A stretch of DNA of 33,222 bases from Caloramator sp. Its GTDB lineage: Bacteria > Bacillota > Clostridia > Clostridiales > Caloramatoraceae. The stretch covers positions 1-33,222 of the forward strand of contig JAOAEI010000011.1 of NCBI GenBank assembly GCA_026416875.1, read 5' to 3'. The notes beneath the pieces were generated by a model. The model had not been told where the DNA came from and ran no database searches. It saw only the letters and a list, made by a program, of their open reading frames with translations. Shown piece after piece: positions 1,038-13,985 of the stretch (the stretch's first letter is position 1; each line of letters starts with the position of its first letter). The position numbers were made by a program, and so were the translations under genes.

Positions 1038-1193
1038 TCAAATTAAACCCATTTGTTCATTTCACTACTTTTTGTATTTGAGAATTTCTTATCATCAAAT
1101 AATACAATAAAAGGCATACGCATAATTCTTATTACTAAGGTAGCTATTTGAACCAGATCTAAAAAATCTATCAAAGCAATTTCATAAAATCTT
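1038..1193. other. Intergenic region between gntP-like gene and asnB
   Basis: AT-rich spacer between two convergent genes. I see no ORF, promoter or repeat in it apart from the asnB terminator hairpin at its right edge. Confidence 0.5.
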
Positions 1194-1223
1194 TTAGGCT
1201 GCCTCAAAATATAGGCAGCCTAA
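1194..1223 (-). terminator. Intrinsic terminator of asnB
   Basis: Perfect 11-bp inverted repeat TTAGGCTGCCT / AGGCAGCCTAA with an 8-nt loop, directly after the asnB stop codon. On the minus strand it is followed by AAGATTTTATG, a weak U tract. It may also slow transcripts from the convergent permease gene, but there is no U tract on that side. Confidence 0.75.
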
Positions 1224-1224
1224 A

Positions 1225-3069
1225 TTATAGCTCAAACTCCACATTATATATTTTTATCCACTCATTTATTTGTATTAAATAAGCTGCAACTTGTGGACCT
1301 GTCATTAACTGTCCAAACCATGTTTTGTTATAATTTTCATTCCTGTTGTCTAAAAAGTTTAATACGTTTTCTTTGTCAATAATTAAGTTTATAGGTTCAT
1401 TGGGACTATATAATATTTGTTTTAATCTTTCTATCACTATCTTTTCATATAATGGATTATGAATCTTTGGATATGGTGATTTTTTTCTATAAATTATTTC
1501 ATTAGGCAAAATCCCTTCAAAGGCTTTTCTTAAAAGTCCCTTTTCCCTTCCTCCTAAAAATTTTAGTTTAGATGGAACATTATATAAATATTCTACTATT
1601 CTATAATCCGCAAAGGGCACTCTAACTTCAAGACTATTATACATACTCATTCTGTCTTTTCTATTTAAAAGAGTTACCATAAACCACTTAATATTTAAAT
1701 AAAATAGCTCCCTCATTCTCTTTTCAAGGTCTGTATCTTCCTCAAGCTTTTCCGCATCATTTATAGTTTTAAGATAATTCATTTTAACAATTTCATCTAA
1801 ATTTAATTTATTTTTTAATTTTTTGCCAATAAAATATTTTCTAAGTTCTAACGACTTAATCCATGGGAATGAATCAAACCAAATATCTTCACTTTTTACA
1901 TACCACGGATAACCGCCAAATATCTCATCTGCACACTCACCAGACAACGCAACCGTTGCATCCTTTTTAATTTCCTTGGTAAAAATCTGTAAAGATGAAT
2001 CAATATCAGCCATACCAGGAAGATCATTTGCCACAACAGAATCATCTAAATAATCAGCCAATTCTTTATTATCAATAACAATATTCTTATGTTTACTTTT
2101 AACAAAGTCACTCATTAAATTTACATATGGCATATCTGAAGAAGGAATAAATTCATTTTTTCTAAAATATTTTTCATTATCAACATAGTCAATTGAATAG
2201 GTATTAAGTTGTTTCCCTAAATCATTATATTCCTTAGCAGCAACAGCTACAATTGCACTTGAATCAAGTCCACCCGATAAAAAAGAACAAACAGGAACAT
2301 CAGAAACAAGCTGTCTTTTTATCGCATCCTGAACTAAAAATCTTACATTTTCAACGGTCTCATCTAAAGACTGTAAATGAACCTTAGCCCTAGGCTTCCA
2401 ATATTCAACCATTCTTACCCCATTTTTATTAAATACTAAATAATTGGCTGGTGGGATTTCTTTTATATCTTTAAATATTGCACTTCCCGGCGGCCTTGAA
2501 GGTCCTAATGCAAAAAGTTCTCCCAAACCATTTAAATCAACAATTGGATTGACTTTAGGGTGTTTTAAAACGGTTTTAATTTCCGAACCAAAAATTAAAG
2601 AACTTCCTTTAATTGAATAAAATAGCGGTTTTACACCTAAATGGTCCCTGCATAAAAAAACCGATTTTTCATCTTCATCCCAAACAGCAAAAGCAAAAAT
2701 TCCATTTAGATATTTTACACATTCTTCTTTCCAATGAATATAACTCATCAGCAAAACTTCAGTATCTGAATAAGATTGAAACCCATATCCATTAGATTTA
2801 AGAATTTTTCTCAAATCCTCTGTGTTATATAGTTCTCCATTGTAAACAATAACATATTTTTTCCCATTCATTTGTCTAATCATTGGCTGTTTTCCGCCTG
2901 ATGGGTCAACTACAACTAGCCTTCTATGGCCCAAAAGCGCGTTCTGATTAAAATAAAATCCTTCATCATCAGGACCTCTGCGGCTTAAAGTTTTAGTCAT
3001 CCGTTTAATAACATCTACATCCTCCAACAAATCCTTATTAAAATCAATCCAACCTGCAATTCCACACAT
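1225..3069 (-). CDS. asnB: Asparagine synthase (glutamine-hydrolysing)
   Basis: AsnB makes asparagine from aspartate, glutamine and ATP in the cytoplasm. The ORF track starts 17 codons too early. The real start is the ATG at 3069, because the protein must begin MCGIAGW so that Cys2 becomes the N-terminal glutaminase nucleophile; a GAGGT ribosome site lies just upstream. The product is 614 aa, the normal class-II amidotransferase plus synthetase layout. The glutaminase half shows RRGPDDEGF and YNGELYN; the synthetase half shows the ATP PP-loop SFLSGGLDSS and later SGECADEIFGGY and LEVRVPFAD. It lies 77 bp downstream of the HAD phosphatase on the same strand and ends in a clear terminator, so it is probably the last gene of that unit. 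No clean promoter is visible in the 77-bp gap. An asparagine synthase-like role in peptide or envelope modification cannot be excluded. Confidence 0.93.
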   Translation of the reverse strand: MCGIAGWIDFNKDLLEDVDVIKRMTKTLSRRGPDDEGFYFNQNALLGHRRLVVVDPSGGKQPMIRQMNGKKYVIVYNGELYNTEDLRKILKSNGYGFQSYSDTEVLLMSYIHWKEECVKYLNGIFAFAVWDEDEKSVFLCRDHLGVKPLFYSIKGSSLIFGSEIKTVLKHPKVNPIVDLNGLGELFALGPSRPPGSAIFKDIKEIPPANYLVFNKNGVRMVEYWKPRAKVHLQSLDETVENVRFLVQDAIKRQLVSDVPVCSFLSGGLDSSAIVAVAAKEYNDLGKQLNTYSIDYVDNEKYFRKNEFIPSSDMPYVNLMSDFVKSKHKNIVIDNKELADYLDDSVVANDLPGMADIDSSLQIFTKEIKKDATVALSGECADEIFGGYPWYVKSEDIWFDSFPWIKSLELRKYFIGKKLKNKLNLDEIVKMNYLKTINDAEKLEEDTDLEKRMRELFYLNIKWFMVTLLNRKDRMSMYNSLEVRVPFADYRIVEYLYNVPSKLKFLGGREKGLLRKAFEGILPNEIIYRKKSPYPKIHNPLYEKIVIERLKQILYSPNEPINLIIDKENVLNFLDNRNENYNKTWFGQLMTGPQVAAYLIQINEWIKIYNVEFEL

Positions 3070-3146: not shown

Positions 3147-3776
3147 TTACTGTAAACTCAAAATTGCCTTCAAATCTTCCACGACATAATCAGGTTCATA
3201 TTTTAACAGTTCTTCTAGATCTAGCACAGTATATTTTACAAGGCATGTTTTTGCACCGGCATTTTTTCCACAAAGAATATCAAAGTGAGAATCACCGACG
3301 AATAATGCATCCTTAGGCTCAAGTTTTAACTTTTCACAGGCCTTTAAAATAGGTTCGGGATTTGGTTTGTGCTTTTCAGTATCCTCTGGAGTTATTAAAA
3401 CATCTAAATAATCCAAAAGATTAAAGAGTTTTAGACCCCTTTCTGCCATTATTCTTCTTTTCGATGTTACAACACCAAGGAGTATTCCTCTTGTTTTTAG
3501 CTCCTCTAATGTTTCCCTTGCATAGTCCATCTCTTTAACCATGCTGTCGTGATTTAATTCATTGTATTCTACATATGTCCTATACATTTCCTCAAATCTT
3601 TCACTATCAAATCTTGATAAGGTAATCTTTAAAGGCTCTCCAAAATATTTAACTATTTCCTTATCATCTGGAATATAATCTAAATGTTTTTTGAAAGTAT
3701 ACTTATAGGACTCTAAAATCAGATTGTTTGTATCGATTAAAGTTCCATCGAGATCAAATAAAACTGCCTTAAACAA
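3147..3776 (-). CDS. HAD-superfamily phosphatase, PpaX/phosphoglycolate phosphatase type
   Basis: A 209-aa cytoplasmic haloacid-dehalogenase phosphatase. All four motifs are present: I, DLDGTLIDT (nucleophile and acid Asp); II, VVTSKRR; III, the Lys in HKPNPEP; IV, FVGDSHFDI. A helical cap sits between motifs I and II, as in subfamily IA. Length and motif spacing match pyrophosphatase PpaX and phosphoglycolate phosphatase Gph, which cannot be separated by eye. The start codon is TTG: AGGAGG lies 8 nt before it and no in-frame ATG is placed as well. The gene follows the glucosidase terminator and precedes asnB on the same strand. Confidence 0.85.
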   Translation of the reverse strand: MFKAVLFDLDGTLIDTNNLILESYKYTFKKHLDYIPDDKEIVKYFGEPLKITLSRFDSERFEEMYRTYVEYNELNHDSMVKEMDYARETLEELKTRGILLGVVTSKRRIMAERGLKLFNLLDYLDVLITPEDTEKHKPNPEPILKACEKLKLEPKDALFVGDSHFDILCGKNAGAKTCLVKYTVLDLEELLKYEPDYVVEDLKAILSLQ

Positions 3777-3824
3777 TTCTTTTTCCTCCTATTAAAGTTT
3801 TTCATATTAAACATAATAAAATAA

Positions 3825-3846
3825 AGAGGTTGAAACTTCAACCTCT
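3825..3846 (-). terminator. Terminator downstream of the GH13 glucosidase
   Basis: Inverted repeat AGAGGTTGAA / TTCAACCTCT overlapping the glucosidase stop codon, followed on the minus strand by TTATTTTATTATG. It separates the glucosidase unit from the HAD phosphatase gene. Confidence 0.7.
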
Positions 3847-5503
3847 AAAAAAGATACACTCTTGCTTCGTAAGGTTTAAAGAGCATGTTTCTCTTTAATT
3901 CTTCTTCAGAATAGTTGCTAATTAAAAGCTTCATATCCTTTTCTAAAAGTTCCCTTGGAAGATTTATTTCTACTTCATCTTTTGAGAAATTCATTAAAAC
4001 TAAAAGATTTTGACCTTCAAAATGCCTTGTATAGGCAAAGATTTTTTCATCATCTTCAAATAAAAGATTTATGTCGCCGTAGACTATTACAGGATATTTC
4101 TTCCTAAGTTCAATTAATTTTTTATAGTAATAAAAAACGGAATTTTTATCCTCAAGGGCTTTTTTGACGTTTATCTCCTTGTAGTTTGGGTTAACCTTAA
4201 TCCAGGGCTTTCCAGTTGTAAACCCAGCGTTTTCACTGTCATCCCACTGCATTGGAGTCCTTGCGTTGTCCCTTCCCTTTTTATAGATTGCCTCTAAAAG
4301 CTTTTGAGGATCATGCCCCTTTTGAATCATTTCATTATACCAGTTTAATGTTTCAATGTCCCTATAGTCCTCTATTGAAGGGAATCTTACATTTGTCATT
4401 CCTATTTCTTCCCCTTGATAAATATAAGGCGTCCCCTGCCAAGTATGGACAAACGTTGCAAGAAGCTTTGCAGACTCTACCCTATACTCTTTATCATCCC
4501 CAAACCTTGAAACCATCCTCGGCTGATCGTGATTATTTAAGTAAACTGAATTCCATCCCTTTTCCTTTAACCCTTCATACCACTTTAGCATTATCCTTTT
4601 AAAATCCGTAAGCTTCCACGGCTTTACATCCCATTTATTCTTTCCTGAGTCTATATCCATTAGTTCAAACTGAAATATCATATTCAGCTCATTTCTGTCA
4701 TAATTCACATAAAGCCTTCCATCCTCAGGTGTAACCCCTGGAGTTTCACCGACAGTCATTATATCGTATTTTGATAGAACTTCCCTATTCATCTCCTGCA
4801 GATATTCATGAACCTTAGGTCCATTAGCGTAGTATTTAAACCCAATTAATCCCTCTTCATTCTCATCATCAGGGAGTCCTTCAACCTTTGAAATAAAGTT
4901 TATAACATCCATCCTAAATCCATCTATTCCCTTATCAAGCCACCACTTCATCATTTTGAATACTTCTTTTCTTACGTTTTCATTATCCCAATTAAGATCC
5001 GGTTGCTTTACTGCAAATAGATGAAGGTAGTATTCATCGGTTGTTTCATCATACTGCCATGCAGAACCTGAAAAGAAGGATGTCCAGTTGTTGGGAGGGT
5101 TATTACCTTTTCCTTTTCTCCATATGTAAAAATCCCTGTAGGGATTATCCTTTGATTTTCTTGATTCTATGAACCATATATGTTCATCGGAGGTATGATT
5201 TACAACAAGGTCCATGATAATTTTGATACCCCTTTTATGGGCCTCATCAAGGAGTCTATGAAAATCCTCCATAGTGCCAAACTCATCCATAATATCATAA
5301 TAATCGCTTATATCGTATCCATTATCGGCGTTTGGGGATTTGTATATTGGATTAAGCCATATAACATCCACACCAAGCTCCTTAAGGTAATCAAGTTTTT
5401 CAATTATCCCCTTTAAATCTCCAATTCCATCCCCATTTGAATCATAAAAACTCCTTGGATAAATTTGATAAACAACAGCTTCCTTCCACCATTTTCTTTC
5501 CAT
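3845..5503 (-). CDS. GH13 alpha-glucosidase, oligo-1,6-glucosidase type
   Basis: A 552-aa cytoplasmic glycoside hydrolase of family 13, by resemblance subfamily 31, releasing glucose from isomalto- or malto-oligosaccharides. There is no signal peptide. The conserved regions are DLVVNHTSD (98-106), GFRMDVINF with nucleophile Asp199, VGETPG with acid/base Glu253, and NNHDQPR with Asp326. The residue after the nucleophile is Val200; in characterised oligo-1,6-glucosidases Val here favours alpha-1,6 bonds, while Thr favours maltase activity, so isomaltase-type activity is inferred. The start ATG follows AAGGGGG. It lies 12 bp after the small membrane-protein gene and is probably cotranscribed with it. 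It could finish the degradation of branched products released by the secreted amylopullulanase encoded at the other end of the window. Confidence 0.92.
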   Translation of the reverse strand: MERKWWKEAVVYQIYPRSFYDSNGDGIGDLKGIIEKLDYLKELGVDVIWLNPIYKSPNADNGYDISDYYDIMDEFGTMEDFHRLLDEAHKRGIKIIMDLVVNHTSDEHIWFIESRKSKDNPYRDFYIWRKGKGNNPPNNWTSFFSGSAWQYDETTDEYYLHLFAVKQPDLNWDNENVRKEVFKMMKWWLDKGIDGFRMDVINFISKVEGLPDDENEEGLIGFKYYANGPKVHEYLQEMNREVLSKYDIMTVGETPGVTPEDGRLYVNYDRNELNMIFQFELMDIDSGKNKWDVKPWKLTDFKRIMLKWYEGLKEKGWNSVYLNNHDQPRMVSRFGDDKEYRVESAKLLATFVHTWQGTPYIYQGEEIGMTNVRFPSIEDYRDIETLNWYNEMIQKGHDPQKLLEAIYKKGRDNARTPMQWDDSENAGFTTGKPWIKVNPNYKEINVKKALEDKNSVFYYYKKLIELRKKYPVIVYGDINLLFEDDEKIFAYTRHFEGQNLLVLMNFSKDEVEINLPRELLEKDMKLLISNYSEEELKRNMLFKPYEARVYLF

Positions 5504-5515
5504 ATTAAGCCCCCT

Positions 5516-5698
5516 TTAATTGTCATTATTTTTATATTCCTTTTCACTTAAAACATCCCTTACAGCCCTTTTTATGCTCTCCTCCATGTTTATTAAGTTT
5601 TTTTCAATAGCACGTTTAACTGCTTGATAGATTACAAAATATAGGATTGCGATATTAATAAGAAAAATTATTAAAGATACTACTGGATTTAAAAACAT
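5516..5698 (-). CDS. Small single-span membrane protein, unknown function
   Basis: A 60-aa ORF not recognised as a known family. Residues 5-27 form one hydrophobic helix (VVSLIIFLINIAILYFVIYQ), followed by a charged amphipathic tail, AIEKNLINMEESIKRAVRDVL. An AAGGGG ribosome site lies about 9 nt before the ATG, and the gene ends 12 bp before the glucosidase start, so both probably share the promoter upstream. It may be a small regulator or scaffold at the membrane, but nothing in the sequence shows this. That it is a real gene is supported by the ribosome site, the tight spacing and the sensible topology. Confidence 0.6.
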   Translation of the reverse strand: MFLNPVVSLIIFLINIAILYFVIYQAVKRAIEKNLINMEESIKRAVRDVLSEKEYKNNDN

Positions 5699-5732
5699 TT
5701 AAATCATCCCCTTATTACAAACTTTTATTCAA

Positions 5733-5762
5733 ATTATCTCATAGATAACAATATTTTGTAAA
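5733..5762 (-). promoter_or_regulatory. Promoter with palindromic operator for the 60-aa ORF / glucosidase unit
   Basis: On the minus strand TTTACA (5762-5757), an 18-bp spacer and GATAAT (5738-5733) form a plausible sigma-A promoter. A perfect palindrome, TTATCT-CAT-AGATAA on the plus strand (5734-5748), overlaps the -10 box, a good position for a repressor. The regulator is unknown. Confidence 0.5.
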
Positions 5763-5807
5763 TATTATAAATAACCAAACTTTTATGGCAAAATATCTTA
5801 AGCCAAG

Positions 5808-5836
5808 TTGCTATTGCAGTTTTGCTTATATATAAT
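5808..5836 (+). promoter_or_regulatory. Sigma-A promoter of nadABC
   Basis: TTGCTA (-35, 5808-5813), a 17-bp spacer and a consensus TATAAT (5831-5836). The predicted start near 5843 leaves a leader of about 25 nt before nadA. I found no riboswitch here and no convincing NiaR box. Confidence 0.7.
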
Positions 5837-5866
5837 ATTGTATATACAGATGTAAAGGATGGTGTA

Positions 5867-6769
5867 ATGATGATAGAGGAAATCAAAAAACTTAAGGAAG
5901 AAAAGGATGCTCTAATCCTTGCCCATAACTATCAAAGGCCTGAAGTTATAGATATTGCCGATTTTGTTGGCGATTCCTTTTACCTTAGCCAGGTAGCAAA
6001 GGATTCAGATAAAAGCACAATAGTATTTTGCGGCGTTGACTTTATGGCTGAAAGTGCTAAAATTTTATCTCCCGAAAAGAAGATTTTACTTCCTGTAAAG
6101 GACGCAGGATGCCCTTTGGCTGAAATGGTGGATATCGATAAGTTAGAAAAATTTAAAAAGGAGCATTCAGATGCAACCTTTGTATGCTATATCAATACAA
6201 GTGCAGAGGTTAAGGCCCTTTGCGATGTTGTTGTAACATCATCAAATGCTGTAAAGATTATAAAAAGGATAGAAAATAAAAAGATAGTCTTTCTTCCCGA
6301 TAAAAACCTCGGTGAATTTGTAAAGGAACAGGTTCCAGAAAAGGATATAGTGCTTTGGACTGGTTTTTGTCCAACCCACCGAAAGATTTCTAAAGAGTAT
6401 ATACTATCGCTTAAGGAAGAAATTAAAGATTTAGTCATTTTAACCCATCCAGAATGCGAAAGGGATGTTAGGGAAATATCCGATTTTATAGGCAGCACCA
6501 AGGAGATAATAGACTATGCAACAAAGACCAACTTTAAAAACTACCTAATTGCAACTGAAGAAGGGGTAATTCATACTTTGAAAAAACTAAATCCAGATAA
6601 AAACTTCTATATCGCAGGCCTTACAGCAACCTGCCCTAACATGAAAAAAACAAAACTTATAGACGTATATGAAAGCCTTTTATATTCAAAATATGAAATC
6701 CATGTTGATAAAGAAATTGCAAAGGCAGCTAAAAGAGCCCTTGAAAATATGCTAATGCTTGCAGGGTGA
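5867..6769 (+). CDS. nadA: Quinolinate synthase A
   Basis: NadA condenses iminoaspartate (from NadB) with dihydroxyacetone phosphate to give quinolinate, using a [4Fe-4S] cluster. The ORF-track start (TTG at 5822) overlaps the -10 box; the real start is ATG 5867 (or 5870) behind AAAGGATGGTG. The product is about 300 aa, the usual length. Family signatures are LAHNYQRPEV near the N-terminus, GDSFYLSQVA, VFCGVDFMAESAK, the cysteine in FVCYINTSAEVKA, LPDKNLG, WTGFCPTH, and TATCPNMKK near the C-terminus. Cysteines for the cluster are therefore present. It is the first gene of nadA-nadB-nadC; its TGA is followed one base later by the nadB ATG pair, so the two are translationally linked. Confidence 0.96.
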   Translation: MMIEEIKKLKEEKDALILAHNYQRPEVIDIADFVGDSFYLSQVAKDSDKSTIVFCGVDFMAESAKILSPEKKILLPVKDAGCPLAEMVDIDKLEKFKKEHSDATFVCYINTSAEVKALCDVVVTSSNAVKIIKRIENKKIVFLPDKNLGEFVKEQVPEKDIVLWTGFCPTHRKISKEYILSLKEEIKDLVILTHPECERDVREISDFIGSTKEIIDYATKTNFKNYLIATEEGVIHTLKKLNPDKNFYIAGLTATCPNMKKTKLIDVYESLLYSKYEIHVDKEIAKAAKRALENMLMLAG

Positions 6770-10137: not shown

Positions 10138-11739
10138 TCATTTATCATCTATCATTTCAATCACATAATTTAATACCGTATCATAAGGGTTTGTCACATC
10201 TAAATTTTTTTCTTTATATTCAACATACTTAATAAAATCATCAAAGCTCTGTTCAACATAAACATCCGGCTGAGTATGATACTCCTCATTTGAAGTCCCA
10301 TCGGGATTTAATCCCATATCAAGTGGGAACCTAATTAAAAGGCCTGAATTAGGCAAAGCAACAACTGCAGGATCCATTCCTATTCCATCTCCTCCTGTTG
10401 TTGTCCCAACAAGGGTTGCAAATTTTGTTGCCTTACAAAATGCTGCAAAGGCCTCAGCAGAAGAATAAACATAATCATCCACCAGCAAAAATATTTTTCC
10501 CTTAAACCCAACAGGATTCTTGGGTTTTATTTCTTCCCTTGAATCTAAAAAACTTGTAAATAATTTTTTAGTTTCTTCTGGATATTTTAATCCATTTGGG
10601 AGTTTTTCTATGGGCCTTGTCTTTATTTTCCTTGACTTTAAGAATTTTTTAATATAGTCTCCCCTATAAAGGCAATAAAATTGAGTAGATAAAGGCTCTT
10701 TTATTAACGGTGGAACGATATTTTCCATATAATAACCTTCGCTTCCTCCGCCATTTCCCCTTATGTCTATGATGAGGAATGGGTAATCCTTTATGCTTTT
10801 AAAAAAGGAATATATGCCCTCTTTATCCCTTTCAACATAATTATGAGCAAATGACCAAACCTTTAAATATGCGATTTTATCCTTTTTTATTATTTTTGTT
10901 TCATAAACTCTATCAGTATTTATGTTGTATTTATTTGTATTTTCATCCTTTGTCCCTTCTAAATTTCTTTTAACAACCCTACCATCTAAAGTTTTAAATT
11001 TTAATTCTGTCATTTGATTGTCGTTACATGAGATAAAAAAATCATTAGTTTTAAGCTTGTTTCTTTTAAAATCATAGGTTAGATACATTTTGTTCATATT
11101 ATCTTTTATGTATTGATCTACTTCAATGCCGTTTATGCTAAGCAAAGTTGAAAACCTTGGAATATCATGTTGCTTTAAATAATCTTTATCACCTAAACTT
11201 GAATATACTACATATTTGCCTTCCACATATCTAAATTCAATAGGGATAGTCTTTTTACTTTTAGGCAATATCTCCATCCATCTTCTGTTTTTAGCTTGGA
11301 CGCTTTTATTGTTTATCACATCTCTCCAGGCAGAATTCCCTGATCCCTTATAAGCATCTCTATACAAGTCGTATCTTTCAGGACTTATTATATTTGTATG
11401 GGCATTTTGTAAAAGGTGCAATATCTCATCTATAGCATAATAAAATTCAACATTGTTTTTTGTTTTTAAAATTTTCCCTTTAAATTCCTCCTTTTTTTCA
11501 ATCCAATCAAAGCCAGTTTTTCGTTTTGCAACCTCCAAATAAGGATAGTTATCCTTTAAAACATTAAACAAATAATCAAAATCCTCCAATTTCTCCTTCG
11601 TGCTGAGCTCTTGTAAATCAAGATTATTTCCCACAGTAAAAACATCTGAAACATTTTCGTTTAATAAAATCCCAATAAATAAAACAAAAAATAAAAGTCC
11701 GACAATAAAAAAACTAAATTTAACTTTTGTTTTTCTCAT
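10138..11739 (-). CDS. S41-family peptidase, membrane-anchored or secreted
   Basis: A 533-aa protein of the S41 (C-terminal processing/tricorn-like) peptidase family. Residues 8-27 are a hydrophobic segment (FSFFIVGLLFFVLFIGILL) after KTKVK, a signal peptide or N-terminal anchor with no lipobox, so the rest faces outside. The peptidase core is in the C-terminal half: FLIIDIRGNGGGSEGYY, then FLLVDDYVYSSAEAFAAF with the likely catalytic Ser, then LVGTTTGGDGIGMDP. The Lys of classical CtpA enzymes (in a TFGKG-like position) is replaced by TTGGDG, so this is not a Ser-Lys CtpA; a tricorn/IRBP-like active site is more likely. No PDZ domain is obvious. It diverges from the DUF2325 gene. The substrate is unknown. 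Confidence 0.82.
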   Translation of the reverse strand: MRKTKVKFSFFIVGLLFFVLFIGILLNENVSDVFTVGNNLDLQELSTKEKLEDFDYLFNVLKDNYPYLEVAKRKTGFDWIEKKEEFKGKILKTKNNVEFYYAIDEILHLLQNAHTNIISPERYDLYRDAYKGSGNSAWRDVINNKSVQAKNRRWMEILPKSKKTIPIEFRYVEGKYVVYSSLGDKDYLKQHDIPRFSTLLSINGIEVDQYIKDNMNKMYLTYDFKRNKLKTNDFFISCNDNQMTELKFKTLDGRVVKRNLEGTKDENTNKYNINTDRVYETKIIKKDKIAYLKVWSFAHNYVERDKEGIYSFFKSIKDYPFLIIDIRGNGGGSEGYYMENIVPPLIKEPLSTQFYCLYRGDYIKKFLKSRKIKTRPIEKLPNGLKYPEETKKLFTSFLDSREEIKPKNPVGFKGKIFLLVDDYVYSSAEAFAAFCKATKFATLVGTTTGGDGIGMDPAVVALPNSGLLIRFPLDMGLNPDGTSNEEYHTQPDVYVEQSFDDFIKYVEYKEKNLDVTNPYDTVLNYVIEMIDDK

Positions 11740-11817: not shown

Positions 11818-11846
11818 TTGACAAAAGCTATAATAATTAATAAAAT
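11818..11846 (+). promoter_or_regulatory. Sigma-A promoter of the DUF2325-DUF3793 operon
   Basis: Consensus TTGACA (11818-11823), a 17-bp spacer and TAAAAT (11841-11846). The predicted start near 11853 falls within the Fur-like palindrome. Confidence 0.75.
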
Positions 11847-11851
11847 TATAT

Positions 11852-11866
11852 TGATATTAATTATCA
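11852..11866 (+). promoter_or_regulatory. Candidate Fur operator (7-1-7)
   Basis: TGATATTAATTATCA matches the 7-1-7 Fur consensus TGATAAT-N-ATTATCA at 13 of 14 defined positions (T for A at position 6). It covers the predicted transcription start, where repressor binding would block initiation. The match to PerR (TTATAAT) and Zur (TCGTAAT) half-sites is worse. Confidence 0.6.
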
Positions 11867-11890
11867 GTTTCATTTGTGAGGAGGAGTTCT

Positions 11891-12193
11891 ATGTCAGCGC
11901 TTATAATAGGTGGGGATAAAGTGCAGACTATAATTAAGGGTTTAAAAAATAAAGGATTTAATTTGATTGAGCATGTTAGCGGTAGAAAAGCTAAAGATAA
12001 AATAAAGGGCTGCATTTTAAAAAACAACAAATATGATTTAGTAATAGTTCTAACAGATTATATAAATCATTGCTTAGTAGCAAATTTTAAAAATAATCTT
12101 TATCACTGCAAAGTAATTTACTGTAGACGATCATGGCCGATAATCGAAGGAAAATTAGCAAATTATATGGAGGGAAAAAATGATAGTATTTAA
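11891..12193 (+). CDS. DUF2325-family protein
   Basis: A 100-aa cytoplasmic protein. The start is ATG 11891, with AGGAGGAG directly upstream; the GTG start of the ORF track would translate the ribosome site. The sequence reads as a small Rossmann-like fold: MSALIIGGDK at the N-terminus, a central VIVLTDYINH and the near C-terminal CRRSWP, which is the conserved signature of DUF2325. The biochemical function of the family is not established to my knowledge. Three cysteines and a histidine (CILK, HCLV, HCKVIYC) could bind metal, but this is speculation. The 3' end overlaps the DUF3793 gene by 14 bp, so the two are translationally coupled and probably work together. Confidence 0.8.
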   Translation: MSALIIGGDKVQTIIKGLKNKGFNLIEHVSGRKAKDKIKGCILKNNKYDLVIVLTDYINHCLVANFKNNLYHCKVIYCRRSWPIIEGKLANYMEGKNDSI

Positions 12194-12770
12194 TTTGTTT
12201 CATCAGATGAAGAATTATGATTATAGAACCTACATTATCAGCCAAATAGTATATTATGCTTCACCAACTATATTTTCATCAAAACCATCTACTATAATCA
12301 ATTTTAATAATATTGACTCATCCTTTTACAAAATGCTCCCTTCAATAAAGGCAGAGTTGCAGAAAAATTTTCGACTTTACACTTATGAACTTTTCAAAGA
12401 GAGCAACAGATGTTTAGTTCTATTCTACAAAAAAGAACTCTTATTAAATGTTTTTAGAGAAAATATTTCTTTTCTCTCCTCCTTTGGATATAAATACGAT
12501 ATGACTTTGAATCAGATTTTAAATCTTTTAAAGGAAAAATATGCCCTCTCCTGTCCCCATGAAATAGGAATCTTTTTAGGTATTCCAAAGGAAGATGTAG
12601 TTGCCTTTATGACTAATAACAAGAATTTTAAGCTTTGCGGGTATTGGAAGGTTTATAGCGATGAAGAAAAAGCTAAAAGAATTTTTGCTGAATATGATAG
12701 AGCGAAAAATTTGGCATTAAATTTTATTTATAATGAATACATGCACCTTAAAAAAACATTTAATAATTAA
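12180..12770 (+). CDS. DUF3793-family protein
   Basis: A 196-aa cytoplasmic protein. The C-terminal half carries what I recognise as the DUF3793 signature: CPHEIGIFLGIPKEDVVAFM followed by CGYWKVYSDEEKAKRIF and YDRAKN. The N-terminal half is less conserved and rich in Phe, Tyr and Leu. The family has no assigned reaction that I know of. The ATG is preceded by GGAGGG inside the end of the DUF2325 gene, with a 14-bp overlap. The conserved Cys/His motif (CPHE) next to a Fur-like operator suggests a link to iron, but this is inference. Confidence 0.78.
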   Translation: MIVFNLFHQMKNYDYRTYIISQIVYYASPTIFSSKPSTIINFNNIDSSFYKMLPSIKAELQKNFRLYTYELFKESNRCLVLFYKKELLLNVFRENISFLSSFGYKYDMTLNQILNLLKEKYALSCPHEIGIFLGIPKEDVVAFMTNNKNFKLCGYWKVYSDEEKAKRIFAEYDRAKNLALNFIYNEYMHLKKTFNN

Positions 12771-12835: not shown

Positions 12836-13225
12836 ATGATCAAATGGAGGGAAGATTATTCTTTAGGAGTAGAAAATATCGACCAGCAGCACAAACATTT
12901 AATTGAAATCGCCAATAGGGTCTATGATGCCCATAAAAATCAATTTTATGTGGACAAGTATGACAAAATAGTTGAAATTTTAAAGGAGCTTAAGGATTAT
13001 ACCATTTATCATTTCGATGAAGAAGAAAAATTTATGAAGGAAATAGGATATGAAGGATATTTTATGCACAAAATAGAACATCAAAAATTCATCGAAAAGA
13101 TTCAAGCAATAGACCTTGAAAAAATAGATGAGGATCAGGATAAGTATCTTCTTGATATATTCAATTTCATTGCCGACTGGCTTGTAAACCATATATTAGA
13201 GGAAGATAAGGCAATAACAAAATAA
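12836..13225 (+). CDS. Bacteriohemerythrin
   Basis: A 129-aa di-iron oxygen-binding protein. The ORF-track start is 17 codons too early; ATG 12836 follows GGGGGTG and gives the usual MIKWREDYSLGV start. All seven di-iron ligands are in place: His19 (DQQHKHLIE), His59 and Glu63 (HFDEEE), His78 and His82 (HKIEH), His119 and Asp124 (HILEED). It is a single-domain, soluble protein expected to bind or scavenge O2, or perhaps NO or iron, in an anaerobe. It follows the DUF2325-DUF3793 pair on the same strand after 65 bp, with its own promoter and a strong hairpin behind it. Confidence 0.93.
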   Translation: MIKWREDYSLGVENIDQQHKHLIEIANRVYDAHKNQFYVDKYDKIVEILKELKDYTIYHFDEEEKFMKEIGYEGYFMHKIEHQKFIEKIQAIDLEKIDEDQDKYLLDIFNFIADWLVNHILEEDKAITK

Positions 13226-13399: not shown

Positions 13400-13705
13400 T
13401 CATTTTATGATTTGGCTTAAATCCATTTTAGCATATATAATTCTGTGAATTTCAACAACCTGGTCTTTAACGACATAAAACACTAAGTAATTTTTTACAG
13501 GTAACACTCTATATTCATTTTCAAGGGATTTTTTAGGATAATATACCCTGCATGAATACGGGAACCGTGCAAGCCTTGATATAGAAGTATCCAATGCATC
13601 AATTAAATCCATTGCTGCCTTTGGTGCTTTTAACTCATCTGTAATGTAAGATACAATATTAGATAAATCTTTACTTGCTAATGGTAAATATCTAATTTCA
13701 TACAT
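13400..13705 (-). CDS. RelE/ParE-family toxin
   Basis: A 101-aa protein with the RelE/ParE toxin fold. It starts MYEIRYLPLASKDL, has the helical pair with ISYI-like and ALDTSISRLARFPY segments, and ends with the typical beta-strand pair YRVLPVKNYLVFYVV and VEIHRIIYAKMD. RelE members cleave mRNA at the ribosome and ParE members target gyrase; the two cannot be told apart here. The start is ATG 13705, 8 codons inside the ORF-track frame, behind AAGGTGG; it overlaps the antitoxin end by 8 bp (ATGTATGA). About 150 bp separate its stop from the hemerythrin hairpin, with nothing recognisable between. Confidence 0.88.
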   Translation of the reverse strand: MYEIRYLPLASKDLSNIVSYITDELKAPKAAMDLIDALDTSISRLARFPYSCRVYYPKKSLENEYRVLPVKNYLVFYVVKDQVVEIHRIIYAKMDLSQIIK

Positions 13706-13985
13706 TATGAGATTCCACCTTATCTTCAAGCCTTGCTCTTAATTCATTAAATATTTCTTCATGCGAAAAACGTTTGTCAGTAGACTTTGCTTCCAATTCA
13801 GCTTCTTTCAGCTTAAAGTAAATTTCACTTTCAAACAGTTTGCGTTCATAAGCTTCCATGCTCATTACAACCATATCACCATAACCATTCTTGGTCAAAA
13901 AAACTGGTTCCCCTGTTTCATGAACAATCCTTGATATATCCGCAAAATTATTTCTCAAATCCGATACTGGTCTAATATGTGGCAT
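13698..13985 (-). CDS. Phd/YefM-family antitoxin
   Basis: A 95-aa antitoxin. The N-terminal DNA-binding Phd/YefM domain is plain: RPVSDLRNNFADI, ETGEPVFLTKNGYGDMVVMSMEAYER. The C-terminal third is charged and helical, the usual toxin-wrapping tail. The gene precedes the toxin and overlaps it by 8 bp, the standard order for coupled translation. A GGGGTGA ribosome site precedes the ATG. Antitoxin, alone or with toxin, is expected to bind the large palindrome upstream and repress the operon. Confidence 0.9.
   Translation of the reverse strand: MPHIRPVSDLRNNFADISRIVHETGEPVFLTKNGYGDMVVMSMEAYERKLFESEIYFKLKEAELEAKSTDKRFSHEEIFNELRARLEDKVESHNV

Follow-up and report, generated by a model that had tools for sequence, protein, structure and literature searches.

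A putative Fur-repressed DUF2325–DUF3793 operon of Caloramator sp. related to a proposed clostridial iron-starvation module

The gene pair and its promoter

The DNA analysed here (the window) is a 33,222-nucleotide stretch of a Caloramator sp. genome. It contains two forward-strand genes, identified as open reading frames with Pfam matches, that encode a DUF2325 protein (PF10087; 100 aa, positions 11891–12193) and a DUF3793 protein (PF12672; 196 aa, 12180–12770). The DUF2325 match is true but modest, lying just above its gathering cut-off (36.5 bits vs 33.6); the DUF3793 match is strong (135.3 bits vs 25.1). A ribosome-binding site, AGGAGGAG, at 11879–11886 (forward strand) places AGGAGG ahead of the DUF2325 start codon (ATG, 11891). 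The DUF3793 start codon (ATG, 12180) lies inside the DUF2325 frame, giving an overlap of 14 nt, and is served by a GGAGG ribosome-binding site that is also within DUF2325 (12169–12173, forward strand); this overlap and the internal site make translational coupling of the two genes plausible. A bacteriohemerythrin gene (12836–13225, forward strand) follows 65 bp 3′ of DUF3793, and a search for a terminator-like site between the two found none; bacteriohemerythrin is possibly a third gene on the same transcript. It adjoins the pair in one related genome (G001) too, and is absent beside the pair in two others (G003 and G014). The reverse strand carries, divergent from the pair, a gene for an S41 peptidase with an N-terminal Tricorn_C1-like stretch (10138–11739), which is retained beside the pair in G001 and G003. 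Also on the reverse strand, at 13400–13985, is a type II toxin–antitoxin pair with overlapping frames, encoding a ParE-like toxin (55 bits) and a Phd/YefM antitoxin (45 bits).

Upstream of the pair is a sigma-70-type promoter, TTGACA-17-TAAAAT (11818–11846, forward strand), which matches the consensus at 11 of 12 positions and is the top-scoring of 17 promoter-like sites in 2.5 kb. A palindrome, TGATATTAATTATCA, at 11852–11866 lies over the predicted transcription start – a position in which a bound repressor would block initiation – and differs from the Fur box TGATAATNATTATCA at one of 14 positions. This arrangement, a consensus promoter overlapped at its start by a Fur palindrome, had been described in the original prediction and is borne out. 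The site has G2 and C14 as in Fur boxes, not the T2 and A14 of PerR boxes, and by its sequence is of the Fur type. The rest of the window contains no second Fur-box site with fewer than three mismatches, and three-mismatch sites are no more frequent than chance predicts in this AT-rich region.

Fur boxes with no more than one mismatch are rare in the genome as a whole, with only two found in 2.03 Mb of an assembly that is 78% complete. The second is about 60 bp upstream of feoA-feoB. At that locus (L095, G000:C243, approximately 3650–6450) a Fur-like gene is located just past feoB on the same strand, and the feoA-feoB-fur arrangement behind a near-perfect Fur box is a probable autoregulated iron operon. 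The best NCBIfam model for the Fur-like protein (L093, on the feoAB contig) is Fur, with a score of 162.7 bits that falls under the model cut-off of 220 and was computed on the matched domain only. The only other Fur-family paralogue in the genome passes the PerR cut-off.

Conservation of the operon and of iron boxes

The Caloramatoraceae family was sampled with 17 genomes, including that of the window (G000). DUF2325 is present in five of these (G000, G001, G003, G014, and G015), and DUF3793 lies directly downstream in every case; the DUF3793 frame is interrupted in G015 and intact in the other four. All five loci have an identical TTGACA –35 hexamer and, 22–38 bp ahead of the DUF2325 start codon, a Fur box with one mismatch. 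The stretch separating hexamer and box varies in both sequence and length. That the two elements are kept across a diverged spacer argues that the box is a selected operator. The original prediction had asked for the same palindrome upstream of orthologs, and it is there in all five.

In a broader sample of 291 genomes of the class, DUF3793 is present in 80 (about a quarter) and DUF2325 scores above its cut-off in 56. The two occur together in 38 genomes, more than expected (p=1e-12, a value that, like the p-value given below, overstates independence and is not literal because the species are related, the direction of enrichment not being in doubt). In 20 of the 38 they are no more than 4 kb apart, usually as neighbours and never on opposite strands. 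Taken with the five family genomes, this runs against the refuting expectation that genomes with both would mostly keep them apart. Each also occurs without the other: DUF3793 in 42 of its 80 genomes, DUF2325 in 18 of those sampled. We also took 91 DUF3793 loci from the class sample with 5.5-kb flanks. Of these 91 DUF3793 operons, 30 have an upstream Fur box with up to two mismatches, whereas the other genes of these loci have one in 4 of 371 cases (p=2e-19, to be read with the same caution); shuffled controls give 1.1 and the reversed pattern none.

The neighbours of DUF3793 point in the same direction. A short flavodoxin (PF00258) is the commonest, being found in 46 of the 91 loci and in both gene orders, followed by DUF2325 (22 loci), FeoB (12), and a DtxR-type regulator (10); in a set of named genomes, flavodoxin is beside DUF3793 at 49 of 80 loci. 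Some loci combine most of these genes. Clostridium ganghwense and C. brassicae have DUF3793-flavodoxin-DUF3793 followed on one strand by Feo genes that end in feoB-DUF2325 (feoA-feoA-feoB-DUF2325 in C. ganghwense), Clostridium sp. K13 has feoA-feoA-feoB and then flavodoxin-DUF3793-DUF2325, and G238 has fur-DUF2325-flavodoxin-DUF3793, in which DUF2325 is preceded by a perfect Fur box. One locus (L048) has a gene for a small Cys-rich FeoB-associated membrane protein, weakly matching PF12669, between feoB and DUF3793 (1192–1356, forward strand). Where DUF3793 is lacking, DUF2325 adjoins feoB in four genomes (G270, G131, G067, and G291) and lies behind a Fur box with no more than one mismatch in two (G132 and G215). 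G185 has DUF2325 at a site distant from its DUF3793 locus, with a separate and perfect Fur box. Because DUF2325 alone adjoins feoB or has its own Fur box, both families are tied to iron independently. The proposal that the two proteins act together is weaker than in the original prediction: 42 genomes have DUF3793 alone, and its most frequent partner is short flavodoxin.

An unbiased k-mer test was run on the class DUF3793 loci that have no Fur box. CTAACTA is present at 26 of 61 such loci and at 9 of 380 controls, and CTAACTA/GTTAGC is strongly enriched. These sites resemble DtxR/IdeR boxes and can be written TTAGN5RCTAACTAA, a pattern which precedes 13 of 32 FeoA genes, 5 of 13 DtxR-family genes, and approximately 6% of other genes; L127, L141, and L240 are examples of loci with this pattern in place of a Fur box upstream of DUF3793. 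The DtxR-like site is present at roughly half of the class loci that lack a Fur box, and one or other iron box is present in 67 of 92 DUF3793 leaders compared with 14 of 381 control genes, and neither in 25 of 92. In a second set, of named genomes, Fur boxes are found at 20 of 71 loci and DtxR-like boxes at 26 of 71 (controls, 7 and 11 of 191), with either box at 44 of 71; this set is only partly independent, a few species being common to both. The DtxR-like pattern was derived from loci of the first set and then tried on the second. The distribution suggests that in many Clostridia a DtxR-like box replaces the Fur box at DUF3793 and feoA, a switch of regulator with the same targets, and DUF3793 appears to keep its iron control while the regulator differs between lineages. 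The putative box, common to DUF3793, feoA, and DtxR-family genes, recalls DtxR/IdeR regulons, whereas the window operon has a Fur box instead.

Predicted folds, conserved residues, and a distant relative

Sequence searches found no significant solved relative of either protein. The structure model of DUF3793 is of high confidence (pLDDT 94.5) and matches no solved structure in the PDB at E <0.001; it is predicted to be a new fold. Near-invariant residues in the family are P29, K35, G103-Y104, P126-H127-E128, G130, D139, and W156-K157-V158-Y159, and the window protein retains the core residues K35, H127, E128, G130, D139, and W156. DUF2325 is modelled with moderate confidence (pLDDT 80, from a 12-sequence alignment) as a four-strand Rossmann-like alpha/beta protein, which resembles Rossmann and receiver-like folds weakly (TM up to about 0.6) with no significant fold relative. 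For neither model did the fold comparisons return a relative that hints at a reaction. The invariant residues of DUF2325 are S2, G7-G8, T55, and H60. The window protein is of a divergent subtype, with 15–24% identity to most clostridial members and 39–40% to the C. ganghwense and C. brassicae proteins. A DUF2325-like domain is also found at the C-terminus of a 584-aa protein (L290, 642–2396, forward strand), an architecture unlike the stand-alone 100-aa form, and the long proteins with DUF2325 domains that were examined gave no hint of function.

The Cys/His motifs HCKVIYC and CPHE, to which importance had been attached in the original prediction, are present in the window proteins and are not conserved. 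HCKVIYC is lost even within the family and is missing in L029, L191, and L192, and the Cys of CPHE is usually Phe. The alignments conserve only His-Glu in DUF3793 and a single His in DUF2325, and on them we reject a conserved metal site. The argument from metal motifs is thus weaker, and the comparative support stronger, than could be known from the window alone.

The description of the pair as uncharacterised does not fully hold for DUF2325. In Campylobacter jejuni, cj1384c codes for a DUF2325 protein (PMC9426514); the gene is repressed by iron, up-regulated in a delta-fur strain, and preceded by a Fur motif (PMC3815106, PMC4491227). It thus has the Pfam family and an upstream Fur motif in common with the window gene, but it lies ahead of katA and is under PerR control too. 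Cj1384c contains 7 Cys in 104 aa, whereas its clostridial relatives do not conserve Cys, and it is a distant relative of the window protein. An open-literature search for DUF3793 gave a sole mention, in a study of a fungal plant pathogen, and one for the accessions PF10087 and PF12672 gave none.

A probable role in iron starvation

Gene order, the Fur box, conservation of the promoter, box enrichment, and neighbours are established at the level of sequence. We estimate a probability of roughly 0.8 that the window operon is a Fur-repressed iron-starvation operon and a reduced form of a clostridial module; regulation by Fur and iron, and assignment to the module, are each highly likely. Fur control is favoured by a rare box common to this operon and feoAB-fur, by the promoter and box kept throughout the family loci, and by the class-wide enrichment. 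The earlier assignment of the pair to the low-iron response is likewise supported: with relatives across the class behind iron-regulator sites and beside Feo and flavodoxin genes, DUF2325 and DUF3793 very probably function under iron shortage. With ample Fe2+, Fe-Fur would occupy 11852–11866 over the start site and block transcription; when iron is scarce, Fur would leave the box and the two proteins would be made together from their overlapping frames. The pair would represent a reduced form of a module found widely among Clostridia, comprising DUF2325, DUF3793, short flavodoxin, and FeoA/FeoB and most often linked to either Fur or a DtxR-type iron repressor, depending on the lineage.

Known low-iron operons of Clostridium resemble this module in part. 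Passages of two studies describe feo and flavodoxin as Fur targets, with induction when iron is low or fur is missing (PMC5050335, PMC6311696). As described there, the operons of C. acetobutylicum (feo CA_C1029-1032, fld1 CA_C0587) and C. difficile (fldX, feo) have a promoter Fur box as in the window, and their products belong to the families that adjoin DUF3793 class-wide; these passages on Fur operons do not name DUF3793 or DUF2325. The window operon itself differs in having neither feo nor flavodoxin. A literature search with the locus tags at and beside C. acetobutylicum fld1 found a paper on the Cap0037 regulator only, the passages of which leave the DUFs unnamed.

The frequency of flavodoxin beside DUF3793, in either order, would also be expected if DUF3793 were a flavodoxin accessory, acting in FMN loading or oxidoreductase coupling, with the window pair a remnant of that system. 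We regard this as unlikely, since no short flavodoxin was found in any of the five pair genomes, either with PF00258 or with the cluster's own profile (G000 being 78% complete), and DUF3793 is intact downstream of the conserved Fur box in all but one of these. Flavodoxin-like domains in these genomes are found only in longer frames, mainly of flavoproteins of about 400 aa. Because the pair genomes lack the short form, a role confined to flavodoxin is unlikely in the window lineage. Control by PerR, with the operon serving peroxide or oxygen defence and not iron starvation, is more improbable still. The genome does encode PerR, a bacteriohemerythrin lies downstream of DUF3793, and cj1384c is reported to be PerR-controlled and to show the strongest induction of any gene under violet-blue light (PMC9426514). 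But the window site has three mismatches to the PerR box TTATAATNATTATAA and the G2 and C14 of a Fur box, PerR-type boxes are not enriched (1 of 71 DUF3793 loci vs 6 of 191 controls in the second set), the neighbours are Feo and flavodoxin genes and not peroxidases, and the hemerythrin is missing beside the pair in G003 and G014; we reject PerR control on the box counts and the mismatches. That the box is a chance palindrome before an ordinary housekeeping or orphan operon, as the AT-rich region and its chance-level three-mismatch sites might suggest, is scarcely credible and is rejected given that the only other comparable site in 2 Mb is at feoAB, that five species retain the box beside a diverged spacer, and that boxes are enriched class-wide.

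Within the iron-starvation reading, the likely job of the two proteins would be as cytosolic accessory factors for the uptake, re-allocation, or sparing of scarce Fe2+. DUF2325 may be a small Rossmann-type ligand-binding protein and DUF3793 its new-fold partner, in which K35, H127-E128, and W156-K157-V158-Y159 are conserved. Joint action of the two has about an even chance, and their physical partnership is presumed; any specific biochemical step for the pair is doubtful. Bacillus subtilis offers a possible parallel in its Fur-FsrA/FbpABC iron-sparing system, in which small proteins whose biochemistry is unclear are made only when Fur is derepressed.

Fur-controlled operons are already known; a conserved module centred on DUF3793, under either of two iron repressors, seems not to have been described in the literature searched. 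We tentatively propose that DUF3793, with or without DUF2325, could lie at the heart of an iron-prioritising system of Clostridia not described before. In this view it would be a protein of new fold, produced solely during iron starvation under Fur or a DtxR-type repressor, that would free, route, or spare Fe2+ even where the usual flavodoxin is missing. With two different iron repressors apparently converging on DUF3793, the link to iron starvation offers a first testable function for a widespread family that has no structural relative. It would add a component to the ways in which strict anaerobes, dependent on Fe-S proteins for their metabolism, survive iron starvation.
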